From Anaerolineales bacterium (GTDB taxonomy: Bacteria; Chloroflexota; Anaerolineae; Anaerolineales; UBA4823), in assembly GCA_025057645.1 (NCBI GenBank), contig JANXBJ010000001.1:430357-494356 (forward strand): a stretch of DNA of 64,000 bases, read 5' to 3'. The notes beneath the pieces were generated by a model. That model was not told where the DNA came from. It saw only the letters and a program-made list of their open reading frames with translations, and did not search any database. Each line of letters starts with the position of its first letter. The first letter of the stretch is position 1. The position numbers and the translations under genes are program-made. Positions 48,577-55,865 of the stretch are shown piece by piece.

Positions 48577-49026
48577 TTACTCGAAGATCCAGCGGTCGAG
48601 GTCTCTATCCCAGGAGAGAATTTCTTCCGGTTTGAACCAAAGACGAATCTCAGCTTCCGCATTTTCGGCTGAGTCAGAGGCATGGGTGAGATTGCGGCCG
48701 ACATCTAGCCCGAAGTCATGCCTTATCGACCCAGGGGCGGCTTCGCGAGGGCGGGTTGCACCCATCGTTTGGCGCACGGCTGCTACCGCCTCAGGCCCTT
48801 CCCAAACCATGGCCAGGACCGGGGAAGAAGTGATGTAATCGATCAGTTTGGGATAGAAGGGTTGATTCTTATGCACTGCGTAATGGGCTTCTGCTAGTTC
48901 TCTGCTCACCCACATAAGTTTTGCTGCAACCAGCTTAAGCCCACGATCTTCTAGACGAGAGAGAATGCGGCCGATCAACCCGCGTTGAACACCGTCTGGC
49001 TTGATCATGACGAAAGTCCGCTGCAC
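48577..49026 (-). CDS. ndk: Nucleoside diphosphate kinase
   Basis: It equalises nucleoside triphosphate pools by phosphoryl transfer through a phospho-His. The 149-residue protein has RTFVMIKPDGVQRGLIG, the nucleotide-site GATRPREAAPGSIRHDFG (core GATRP) and the active-site NLTHASDS with the catalytic His. The frame starts at 49041, but the GTG at 49026 follows GGAGG by five bases and places QRTFVMIKPD correctly. It lies 27 bases after the TPR gene, suggesting one transcript. Confidence 0.95.
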   Translation of the reverse strand: MQRTFVMIKPDGVQRGLIGRILSRLEDRGLKLVAAKLMWVSRELAEAHYAVHKNQPFYPKLIDYITSSPVLAMVWEGPEAVAAVRQTMGATRPREAAPGSIRHDFGLDVGRNLTHASDSAENAEAEIRLWFKPEEILSWDRDLDRWIFE

Positions 49027-49053
49027 AAAAACCTCCAACAAGCGAGTTCGATT

Positions 49054-51648
49054 TTATCGGAGGAGTTCTTCGGCTTTATTATAAGCGTCTAGGGCTTCAG
49101 CAAGAAGGTCTTTTCGAAGGTAGGCATCGCCAAGAAGCATCCACACCTTGACTTCCATAGGGTATTGGTAGAGAGCATTCGAAAGATCTTGAATGATGCG
49201 GTCAAGCTCCACCCTTTCCCGGATAAGCGCTTGATATTTGTCCACCGCTTGATCAATATAGCCTCTGGATAAAGCAAGCCAAGCTTCCTCTATTATCTGG
49301 GTGCGGGACTGGGGAAGCTCCTTGGTTTCAAGCAATGTTTCCTCAGACCGAAATGCCCCAAGTTGTGGCTCTGGAGGCGAGACCTCAGTTGGTCGATGTT
49401 CTACATCGGTTACAAAAGGTTGAGCGAAAGTTCGAGCGGCGGGGACAGTGAGATCTGGTGTGTCGGTGGCTTCCTGAAGTGGGGCAGGAGTCTCAGACGG
49501 AGCGGGTTCAGAGACAGACACTTCTTGGGACGGCGTCTGTTCGATGGTTGCTGGTGAGTACTCCTGAAACCATTCTGTGGCTTCTGTTGCCGAGGTTGCT
49601 CTCAGCCATTCGGGAATTTCTGGTTCAGGATGAACTGTAGCCTCGGGTTGCTCCTCTTTTTCTAGTTCCACTCGCAACCACTCAGGAAGCTCTTCTTGGG
49701 CGGAGGGGGCTGGAGCAGAGGTGGAATCCGCTGAGGGGCTTTTGGCTTTTTCGAATAGCTCTAGGGGTTGTTCAGCAAGCGGAGACTCTTTTGCGGTTTC
49801 AACATCTTGGTGGGCTTCGAGGTACTCGCGGATCCAGTTGGGTGGTTCTTCTTTACGTTGGTCTGGCGAGAGCAACAGAGCTTCCTCAACGCCCTGTTTG
49901 GCGGCGAGGCTCTCTAGCCATGCGAAAGCTTCATCCTCGGCTGTGGGCGAGGGGGGTTTTTCCGGTGGAGGTGAGGGGAATTCTGACGCTGGTTCGTTTT
50001 GAGGTTGGACTTGGACGGGTTTTGTATCTTCCTCGGCCGGGGGTGGCTCGGTTGAAAAGGCGAATTTCTCGCCTTCAAGGTCTGAAGGGGCTTGTAGCCA
50101 ATCTGGAAGCGGTTCGAAGTCAGAGGAAGAGGTTTCCTGCCTGAGCCATTCGGGCAAATCTAAATCGGGTGCTGTCTCTGAGGGGGGGGCGTGGGGAGAA
50201 GAAGGCTCAGGAGGAATTGACTCTGCAGCGAATGGTTCGGACGTGCTCGTTTCATCCCATAGAGTTTGTTCAATGAAACCCTCTGTGGTTAGGGTGGACT
50301 TACGATCTAATTCCCTTAGCCAATCCGGAATTTCCTCTTGCTCAAGCGATAAACTTTCCTCGGCTTGTGGTTGCTCTCTCTCAAGCTCGGCGAGCCAAGA
50401 GGGAATGCCCTCTGTGCCTTCTGCATCGGGTATGCTTTCGTAGAGGATCGGAGTAGCTTTCGCAAATCCTGCGTCGGTGGAAGTAAGGTCGGCTTCTGCA
50501 GGTGAGATCTCTCTTAGCCAGTCGGGGATTTCACCTGCCTCCAGTTCTTCCAGTGTGGTTTCCTCGCTGAACAGAGGCATAGAAAGTGTTTCCTCGGAAT
50601 CGGGTTGCTCCCTTAGTTCACTTTCTTGCCAACCGAGTTCTCTCATCCAATCGGGTATGTCATGGGTTGGAGTTTCCTGAGGCAAGGCTTTCGATGACTG
50701 GAGAGTCTCTGAAGGTTGTTCCTGAATTTGTGGTCTCCCTTGCTGCTCAGGGAGAATCGCTTCGGTAATCCAATCGGGAGCAGAGATTTCGGGCTGCGTC
50801 TTCTCTTGGATTTGCACCCCTAGCGAAGCTGCCCATTCAGGTTGTTGGGAAAGAGGTGAAGAGGGGATAGATGGGGTAGCTTCCTCTGGCTTGGCTAAGA
50901 TCACTGCTGTATCCGGCACCAACTCAACGAGGGGTTGGTCTATACTCAGGAAAGCGGCATAGGGGTCTAACTCTATCAGTTTCGCCAAGTAGCGCTGGGC
51001 TTCTTTTTCTCTGTTTTCAAGAAGAGAGATTTGCCAAAGGATAAAGAGGGCTTCGTAACAGTAGGGCAATTTTGCGAGCAATTGGTGGGCACTTGCCTTC
51101 GCTTCGGGGTACTGTCGGGTTTCATAATATGCCTTGGCAAGCAAGGCCTCTAAATCGGGACGTTGTGGATCTTCGGCTAGGGCCATACGGATTTCGGCAA
51201 TGGCTTGTGAGTGAAGATTGCCTTTCAAATACATTCGGGCTAGTGCGCCACGATTTAGGTTAACCTTCAGCGGCTCAAAGCCATCCCTCCTCCCATATAG
51301 CCGCCGTAATTCACCTTGAATGGCATTGTTTGAAGGCTGCACCTCAAAAGCTCTTTCCATGTGCCAGATGGCTGCGTTCAAATTGCCTTCGTCTTCTCGG
51401 ATAATGCTTAGACCGACATGAGAGATGAAATCATCCGGTAGGCTGGAAAGCACACGTTGAAAGATATCACTGGCATCTCCAAATCTGCGGTTCTCGAGCA
51501 GCGCCTTGCCGAGCAGGCGATAAGTGCTGACGCACTTGGGGTAAATAGTAAGGATATGACGACAATGGAAGATTGCCCGATCGTAAAGCGCTTGGTCGAT
51601 CTGTTCTTCGATTTGACGGTGATAGGCCCTTAGAGGTATAGAAGCCAT
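49054..51648 (-). CDS. TPR protein with about twelve [IL]P[DE]WLRE-like motifs
   Basis: The 864-residue acidic protein has TPR-like helical repeats at about 10-240 and again at 785-864. Between them lies a Glu/Ser/Pro-rich, probably disordered region carrying short repeats: PEWAAS (270), PDWITE (291), IPDWMREL (331), IPDWLRE (374), IPSWLAEL (415), IPDWLREL (440), LPEWLRQ (498), LPDWLQA (514), FAWLESL (575), PPNWIRE (602), LPEWLRV (654) and IPEWLRA (678). No signal peptide is seen, so it is probably cytoplasmic. The function is unknown; a multivalent scaffold binding one partner many times is my inference. The ATG at 51648 is preceded by an AAGGGAG. Confidence 0.8.
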   Translation of the reverse strand: MASIPLRAYHRQIEEQIDQALYDRAIFHCRHILTIYPKCVSTYRLLGKALLENRRFGDASDIFQRVLSSLPDDFISHVGLSIIREDEGNLNAAIWHMERAFEVQPSNNAIQGELRRLYGRRDGFEPLKVNLNRGALARMYLKGNLHSQAIAEIRMALAEDPQRPDLEALLAKAYYETRQYPEAKASAHQLLAKLPYCYEALFILWQISLLENREKEAQRYLAKLIELDPYAAFLSIDQPLVELVPDTAVILAKPEEATPSIPSSPLSQQPEWAASLGVQIQEKTQPEISAPDWITEAILPEQQGRPQIQEQPSETLQSSKALPQETPTHDIPDWMRELGWQESELREQPDSEETLSMPLFSEETTLEELEAGEIPDWLREISPAEADLTSTDAGFAKATPILYESIPDAEGTEGIPSWLAELEREQPQAEESLSLEQEEIPDWLRELDRKSTLTTEGFIEQTLWDETSTSEPFAAESIPPEPSSPHAPPSETAPDLDLPEWLRQETSSSDFEPLPDWLQAPSDLEGEKFAFSTEPPPAEEDTKPVQVQPQNEPASEFPSPPPEKPPSPTAEDEAFAWLESLAAKQGVEEALLLSPDQRKEEPPNWIREYLEAHQDVETAKESPLAEQPLELFEKAKSPSADSTSAPAPSAQEELPEWLRVELEKEEQPEATVHPEPEIPEWLRATSATEATEWFQEYSPATIEQTPSQEVSVSEPAPSETPAPLQEATDTPDLTVPAARTFAQPFVTDVEHRPTEVSPPEPQLGAFRSEETLLETKELPQSRTQIIEEAWLALSRGYIDQAVDKYQALIRERVELDRIIQDLSNALYQYPMEVKVWMLLGDAYLRKDLLAEALDAYNKAEELLR

Positions 51649-54638: not shown

Positions 54639-55865
54639 ATGGGCGCTATGCTAGATGAAAACCTGTTGAACCAACTCAGCGAAAGAGAAGATGAAGAGAG
54701 CAGTCCTATCGCGCGCTTAATCGAGTTGGGTCGACAGAAATCCTATGTCACGTTTGATGACATTCTCAGCTTCTTCCCAGAAGCCGAACAGGATGTCGAT
54801 CAACTCGAGGAAGCGTTCGCTGCGCTTTTGAGCGCAGGCATCCCCTACGTGGATGATGTCAGTTCAGTCGGGCCGACTGACGAAGAACTGGCCGAAGAAG
54901 AGAGCGCAGGGGATCTTAACTCGCACCTTGCACTCGAGGACGACTACCTAGCGAATATTGACACTGACGATACGATCGGTCTTTACCTAAAGGAGGTCGG
55001 TCGTGTGCCCTTGTTGACCGCCGAAGAGGAAGTAGAGTTGTCGCAGCGGATCGAGCGCGGTCGGCTTGCTCGTGAGGAGTTAGCGCGTGGAAATGTAAGC
55101 CCGAAGCGAAAAAAGGAATTGCAAGCCCTAATTGAGGATGGATGGGCTGCACGTGAGCACTTAATCACGGCAAATTCTCGCCTGGTAATTAGCGTGGCAA
55201 AGAAGTATATGGGGCGCGGAGTGCCGTTCCTCGACTTGATCCAGGAAGGGAACATCGGCTTGATCCGTGCTGCAAAGAAGTTCGACTACCGCCGTGGACA
55301 TAAATTCAGCACCTATGCGACTTGGTGGATCCGTCAAGCTGTTACGCGGGCAATTGCCGACCAAGGGCGTACGATCCGTGTGCCGGTTCATATGGGCGAT
55401 CAGATCAACAAACTGTTGCGGGTGCAACACCAGTTAACTCAGCGCTTAGGGCGCGAACCGACGGTGGAGGAATTAGCCGAAGCGCTTGACGTTCCACCGC
55501 AAAAGGTCGAAAATATGATCCAGGTAGCCCGGAGGCCGTTATCCTTGGAGACGCCGACTGACGATGAAGAGGACTCAGTTCTAGGCGATTTTATCCAGGA
55601 TGAGGAAGTCTCGGCACCCGATGAGACAGCCACCCATAACCTTTTGCGGGAGCACTTAGAGGAAATCTTGAACACACTCCCACCGCGCGAGGTGCGCATC
55701 CTACAATTGCGCTACGGCTTGTTGGATGGTCAAGCCTATACTCTAGAAGAGGTGGGCAGAAAAATGGGGGTTACCCGGGAACGGGTGCGTCAGATCGAGG
55801 CTCAAGCTCTGAGCCGCCTGCGTCATCCTTCGATCCGGCGGAAATTAAGAGAGTACTTGAGCTAA
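54639..55865 (+). CDS. rpoD: Primary RNA polymerase sigma factor (sigma-70, RpoD/SigA)
   Basis: The 408-residue protein has region 1.1 (residues about 1-75), then [21 protein letters not shown] (region 1.2, core [11 protein letters not shown]), region 2 with [26 protein letters not shown] (core [13 protein letters not shown]) and [13 protein letters not shown], region 3, and region 4 with [20 protein letters not shown] (core [11 protein letters not shown]). It directs general transcription, matching the TTGACA/TATAAT promoters in this window. It is shorter than the E. coli protein, lacking the large insert between regions 1 and 2. AGGTGA lies just before the ATG at 54639; a second ATG at 54648 is possible. 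Confidence 0.95.

Follow-up and report, generated by a model that had tools for sequence, protein, structure and literature searches.

A putative multivalent docking scaffold with a tryptophan-motif array between two TPR domains, encoded beside ndk in Anaerolineales

Results

A protein with TPR domains at both ends lies directly upstream of ndk

Within the window, the 64,000-nucleotide stretch of Anaerolineales DNA analysed here, a minus-strand open reading frame (49054..51648) encodes a protein of 864 residues, which we refer to as the scaffold in anticipation of the interpretation given below. The gene is directly upstream of ndk (nucleoside diphosphate kinase; 48577..49041, minus strand) with a 12 bp gap between the two, and sigA is located 3 kb from it (54639-55865, plus strand). 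Based on the reading frame, Pfam matches and AlphaFold models, the protein divides into an N-terminal TPR domain (residues 1-252; 50893..51648), a linker predicted to be disordered (residues 253-781, or about 236-780; 49306..50892) and a C-terminal TPR (residues 782-864; 49057..49305), all on the minus strand. TPR_16, TPR_19, TPR_2 and TPR_14 score above the Pfam cut-off, placing the protein in the TPR superfamily, and these matches are confined to the two ends (residues about 16-225 and 787-862). The AlphaFold models, built with 44 and 46 sequences, have TPR helix pairs at both ends and pLDDT values greater than 90 in both TPR domains, while most of the linker stays under 50, rising to 60-79 at the motifs described below. 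The disordered segment between TPR domains proposed in the first-pass annotation is thus borne out. Fold matches to the TPR parts were to consensus TPRs, OGT, APC/C subunits, PEX5 and PilF. The named NCBIfam TPR equivalogs all fall far below their curated cut-offs (PrsT 59 versus 312 bits, MamA 45 versus 200, PilW 39 versus 154) and, although TPR segments weakly match PrsT, PilW/PilF and MamA, none of these models covers the linker.

The linker carries ten tryptophan-centred motifs and a second, longer element

The linker is acidic and rich in Pro, Ser and Glu (117 D/E versus 29 K/R in the 529 residues analysed). It contains ten P[DESN]W[LIM] motifs, with tryptophans at residues 293, 334, 377, 418, 443, 501, 517, 605, 657 and 681. 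In order, and all on the minus strand, these are APDWITEA (50758..50781), IPDWMREL, which is followed by GW340 (50635..50658), IPDWLREI (50506..50529), IPSWLAEL (50383..50406), IPDWLREL (50308..50331), LPEWLRQE (50134..50157), LPDWLQAP (50086..50109), PPNWIREY (49822..49845), LPEWLRVE (49666..49689) and IPEWLRAT (49594..49617). With their flanks, single motifs read as EIPDWLRELD or AFAWLESLAAKQGVEEALLL. Three looser versions, namely a degenerate first motif QPEWAASLG (W272; 50818..50844, minus strand), AFAWLESL (W577) and TEWF (W693), make the earlier count of about twelve a fair one. In 20,000 shuffles of the linker segment the mean number of P[DESN]W[LIM] motifs was 0.09 and the maximum was 4, so that the observed ten represent an approximately 100-fold enrichment.

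Codon usage varies amongst the motif copies and, in this genome, DNA similarity between copies is limited to 18-25 nt around the motif. This indicates that the peptide is under selection and that no recent tandem DNA repeat is present here; a recent tandem duplication was rejected for this genome, and tandem copies do occur in some relatives. We likewise rejected the possibility that the motifs are ordinary TPR helix fragments, one of the outcomes that would have undone the earlier proposal, since the Pfam TPRs end at the termini and the linker is predicted to be disordered. A DNA pattern search of this genome returned 23 matches, six of which are in the scaffold gene and the remaining 17 of which are isolated or out of frame; it revealed no second W-motif array elsewhere in this genome, and the idea of a signal common to many of its proteins was rejected.

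The first-pass annotation had described the spacers as unconserved. This is true of most of the linker but not of residues about 570-612 (the EDEAFAWLESLAAKQGVEEALLLSPDQRKEEPPNWIREYLEA region; 49813..49941, minus strand), where we found a second conserved element, AFAWLESLAAKQG...PPNW, that had been missed. The element is about 40 residues long, with the consensus DxAxAWLESLAAKQGAxEExLxxxPExRxExPPxW (also DxAxAWLESLAAKQGAxEEELLTxPEERxExPPxW), and its C-terminal end is a W motif, in this protein the eighth. There are zero to five copies per orthologue. No Pfam family matched the segment in the window protein, and no relatives of the 40-residue element were found amongst solved structures.

In the AlphaFold models the linker forms short helices at the motifs (residues 333-337, 376-381, 442-446, 604-612 and 656-663), and the long element is also helical at residues 571-584. 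Block pLDDT reaches 76-79 around motif 2 and 67-78 around motif 3. Short helices appearing at the motifs only are what would be expected of pre-helical docking peptides in a predicted model, and these helices may dock on the TPR domains. A different function for such helices would be association with membrane or lipid, as described for some WxxxF regions of PEX5 that use short amphipathic helices in this manner (PMC8086558). The predicted linker helices are indeed amphipathic with tryptophans that could act as anchors, but they are only one or two turns long, and their surroundings are strongly acidic and poor in basic residues. Short helices in acidic contexts bind anionic bacterial membranes poorly, and we regard membrane association as very improbable.

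The motifs are better conserved in orthologues than the rest of the linker

A match to the 864-residue protein was found in 36 of 41 genomes (its own and 40 relatives), a few of these being weak, TPR-only matches, and the array was retained at every examined locus that spans the linker, with at least three motifs each. The N-terminal TPR domain is single copy in relatives. The linkers of 44 full-length orthologues from the order contain 445 motifs, compared to 8.3 in shuffled sequences. When 18 orthologues from the order were aligned to the window protein, identity to it was 54% in the motif cores and 24% in the rest of the linker, compared to 61% in the N-terminal and 48% in the C-terminal TPR domain. 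Both the conservation in orthologues and the selective conservation of the tryptophan motif anticipated earlier therefore hold. Alignment of 785 distinct linker tryptophan sites gives the consensus [ED]-[ED]-[LIA]-P-[DE]-W-L-x-[ESD]-[LAI], in which position +1 is L, I, V or M in about 80% of the sites and E in 3%, and position +4 is L, A, E or I rather than F or Y.

Each of the 44 orthologues has between 4 and 21 motifs at irregular spacing (median 43 residues), and motif number correlates with linker length (r = 0.61), the pattern expected of an avidity array. The first motifs (W272, W293, P332-W340 and W377) are conserved in position across the order, a second exception to the earlier description of the spacers as unconserved. 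W377 is invariant in the 44 orthologues and W272, G277, W293, P332, G339 and W340 are nearly so across the order. The linker thus has the sequence features of a multivalent short linear motif array, with a short motif that recurs and is conserved through a disordered region whose spacers are poorly conserved.

The array could in principle have spread by recombination of linker DNA without any binding function. Near-identical tandem copies in some relatives (one, at locus L016, has seven copies of GLPDWLDELA, counting those that differ in one residue), an insertion specific to one paralogue (described below) and the existence of lineages without motifs are all consistent with such neutral expansion. 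However, in this genome both codons and spacers differ between copies while the tryptophan context is kept, and this, together with motif positions that are invariant across the order, points to purifying selection. Neutral expansion is already disfavoured by the contrast between motif and spacer sequences, and we give it very little weight.

The consensus also bears a resemblance to the C-terminal peptide of FtsZ, and a motif that imitates it might bind FtsA. The FtsZ tail in this genome, DLDIPTFLR, is canonical, and two ftsZ genes are present (G000:C11:58797-59738, with FtsA adjoining, and G000:C44:118168-119112). The common pattern [DE][IL]Px[FW]L, along with the FtsA-linked FtsZ, the second FtsZ and the lack of a detectable SepF, makes mimicry attractive by eye, but it is not supported once scored: against the array profile, in the correct register, the per-window p value of FtsZ tails is only about 1e-3, a level that hundreds of unrelated sequence windows in the sample also attain, and the resemblance is therefore not specific. 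Moreover, the array has D or E at −1 and lacks a fixed R at +2, and the scaffold locus showed no division genes. We consider FtsZ mimicry to be highly unlikely. SepF as a receptor was rejected, since it was not found in 21 genomes including this one.

The ndk linkage recurs throughout the phylum and the linker peptides are lineage-specific

A profile of the N-terminal TPR domain matched 83 of 150 genomes of the class and 119 of 301 genomes of the phylum at E <= 1e-20, a threshold at which the weakest matches could be other TPR proteins. Most sampled genomes of the order have the scaffold, as do many elsewhere in the phylum. Proximity to ndk, first noted as a local feature, proved more significant than could be known from one locus, for the adjacency is conserved phylum-wide: ndk lies downstream in 104 of 139 examined loci, always on the same strand, a count in which about two dozen of the remaining loci stop at a contig edge and some genomes, present in two collections, appear twice. 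Amongst 75 loci from the order, hppA is nearby in 56 and sigA is within the flank examined in 31.

Not all members carry the array. The N-terminal TPR domain occurs without any W motif in families f50 and f32 and in loci outside the class, and some motif-less members consist of the N-terminal TPR, a short linker and the C-terminal TPR. These members also keep ndk as a neighbour, so that motif presence is not merely due to ndk; the linkage is strong but independent of the motif, and the array is dispensable in some lineages. Three families (f34, f60 and f62) divide the protein between two neighbouring genes, the first encoding the N-terminal TPR and part of the array and the second encoding further array and the C-terminal TPR. 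In one split-gene lineage (L216:6300-10778, minus strand) proline-less DWLSEL repeats in a very acidic linker replace PDWL. In family f49 (L271) an array-like protein is located between hppA and ndk, and TPRs are not detectable in it.

At seven loci (L278-L282, L292 and L294), taken to be Chloroflexia by inferred class, the linker has 8-31 motifs of a different type in place of W motifs (PFSLEDLGLSPEEIA; consensus [LM]xPFSLEDLGLSPEEIA). The GLSxEEI part of these repeats in L280 and L281 gave summed matches to DUF1127 (E 8e-14 and 3e-9), built from pieces of about 11 residues, and the similarity may be due to chance. Additional domains were also observed in linkers: a sigma-70 region 1.1-like domain (PF03979) above the gathering score in L279, L280, L281 and L282, and a helix-hairpin-helix domain (HHH_3) in 10 of the 44 orthologues, which in L060 occupies residues 1218-1278, after the W linker and ahead of the C-terminal TPR. 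Taken together, the family comparison indicates that the TPR/linker/TPR arrangement beside ndk is conserved while each lineage has its own set of linker peptides.

Replacement of whole arrays bears on two other readings. In the first, the Trp/Leu helices would be stickers that weakly self-associate, so that the protein condenses with no specific receptor. Aromatic and aliphatic residues placed irregularly among acidic spacers of Pro, Ser and Glu, with a net charge of −0.21 per residue, suit such a model, and the exchange of entire arrays for another amphipathic motif in Chloroflexia, or for DWLSEL repeats, favours it since swapping would be easier without a fixed receptor. On the other hand, the fixed context at −3, −2, −1 and +1 and the order-wide invariance of the first motif positions exceed what stickers need, and the constraint on the 40-residue element goes far beyond that expected of one. 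We judge this reading to be unlikely. In the second, the protein would bind its own W peptides in the concave groove of either the N-terminal or the C-terminal TPR, intramolecularly (autoinhibition) or intermolecularly (a homotypic network), much as TPRs take up the kinesin light chain linker or W-acidic cargo peptides. In the main family the array is in the same protein as the TPRs, or adjoins one in the split lineages; motif type and N-terminal TPR sequence change together between Anaerolineae and Chloroflexia, with Y9, H28, Y43, D73 and W95 conserved in owners of W arrays and lost in the PFSL-type and motif-less groups; and the motif helices closest to the N-terminal TPR reach a block pLDDT of 78-79. 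These differences are, however, confounded by phylogeny, and several of the positions are structural or on helix B (standard TPR numbering) and not clearly groove-lining. Both TPRs are kept in motif-less members, and neither the f49 proteins nor the W-module protein described next has a detectable TPR. As an explanation of the whole array, self-docking appears to us rather doubtful.

Both linker elements also occur in an unrelated protein of one relative

Genome G014 encodes a protein of 1588 residues that is unrelated to the scaffold (L231:4262-9025, minus strand) but whose linker contains a complete long element together with two PDWL motifs, all most similar to those of the scaffold of the same genome. 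By eye the protein is kinase-like, although without a Pfam match; it has a C-terminal hydrophobic segment, a putative membrane anchor, and its gene is within a cluster of large ORFs. An adjoining paralogue, 47% identical, lacks both W motifs and long element. This one genome supports the W motifs and long element being a portable, autonomous module.

Discussion

Our preferred reading, to which we assign a probability of roughly 55%, is that the protein is a putative multivalent docking scaffold whose architecture resembles that of PEX5, although it is no PEX5. The gene product would be a soluble scaffold of two TPR domains and a long acidic disordered linker, the latter an array of short docking peptides with the consensus [ED][ED][LI]P[DE]WLx[ES]L. 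Each peptide would form a Pro-capped amphipathic helix of one to two turns exposing W, L(+1) and L(+4), and one or more longer helical elements would each end in a W peptide. Many weak, identical contacts would provide avidity and clustering, leaving the TPR domains to hold other ligands; since motif-less members keep both TPRs, these domains must do more than bind the W motif. We infer from the array that its motifs bind protein, that the binding is multivalent and that a receptor reads them. If docking is correct, an external partner would account for about half of the probability, the protein's own or sister TPRs for about a third and motif-motif contacts for the remainder. Exchange of the array for 8-31 P-led motifs in the sister class was counted in favour of the docking scaffold. 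Against it, the genome yielded no further array, some lineages do without the motifs while keeping the N-terminal TPR and ndk, the confidence of the motifs in the AlphaFold models is only 60-79, Trp/Leu stickers in acidic spacers would also suit nonspecific self-association, and the case for a portable module comes from a single genome.

The closest working analogue is PEX5, of which the scaffold is not a member. PEX5 combines a disordered region carrying several Trp-centred, partly helical WxxxF/Y peptides with a TPR domain (PMC8086558). In both proteins a disordered array of Trp peptides is joined to TPRs, and PEX5 TPR structures are amongst the fold matches of the scaffold. In contrast, the PEX5 motif is WxxxF/Y rather than PDWLxxL, and a PEX5-like peptide scores at background with the array profile. 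PEX5 is eukaryotic and has one C-terminal TPR rather than two flanking ones, its array binds PEX14/PEX13, and there is no homology beyond the TPRs. A second comparison is with kinesin light chain, whose TPRs read acid-flanked, Trp-centred peptides and which is autoinhibited by linear peptides (PMC5450233, PMC6224480). These W-acidic peptides share with the scaffold motif a tryptophan and acidic residues, but they lack P(−2) and L(+1) and usually occur once or twice rather than ten or more times. The scaffold sites do not fit the kinesin light chain motif [LM]x[DE]W[DE], given their hydrophobic +1 position, and the SKIP W-acidic peptide obtained no score against the array profile in the one register used. 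A third comparison is with EPYC1 and CsoS2, whose partner is Rubisco; in these disordered proteins short binding motifs recur in varying numbers, separated by spacers of low conservation. Such linker scaffolds show little conservation between species (PMC11570498). The likeness lies in repeated short motifs in a disordered protein and in variable copy number, whereas EPYC1 and CsoS2 have no TPR ends, other motifs, an unrelated locus and a known partner.

No published description of this scaffold family was found in the open-access literature searched. New here are the long element, the two-gene split, the phylum-wide ndk linkage, the swapping and loss of motifs and the portable module. Across the family the linker vocabulary differs: Anaerolineae use PDWLxxL together with the AWLESLAAKQG element, Chloroflexia use PFSLEDLGLSPEEIA, and others have no such motif. 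We tentatively suggest, as a possibility we hold well short of even odds, that this is an ndk-linked Chloroflexota family in which a co-evolving receptor, possibly the protein's own TPRs, reads a class-specific vocabulary of docking peptides and which serves as a bacterial multivalent interaction hub. Because linkers also host HHH_3 or sigma-1.1-like domains, such a hub might be connected with transcription or the nucleoid.

Multivalent docking-peptide arrays are well known from eukaryotes, whereas few bacterial examples have been described. The present family keeps a fixed position next to a housekeeping kinase gene, and its relatives that lack the motif, have it swapped or are split over two genes offer a set of natural experiments. 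Both the peptide reader and the evolutionary replacement of the motif vocabulary are approachable using two soluble domains and synthetic versions of the short peptides.
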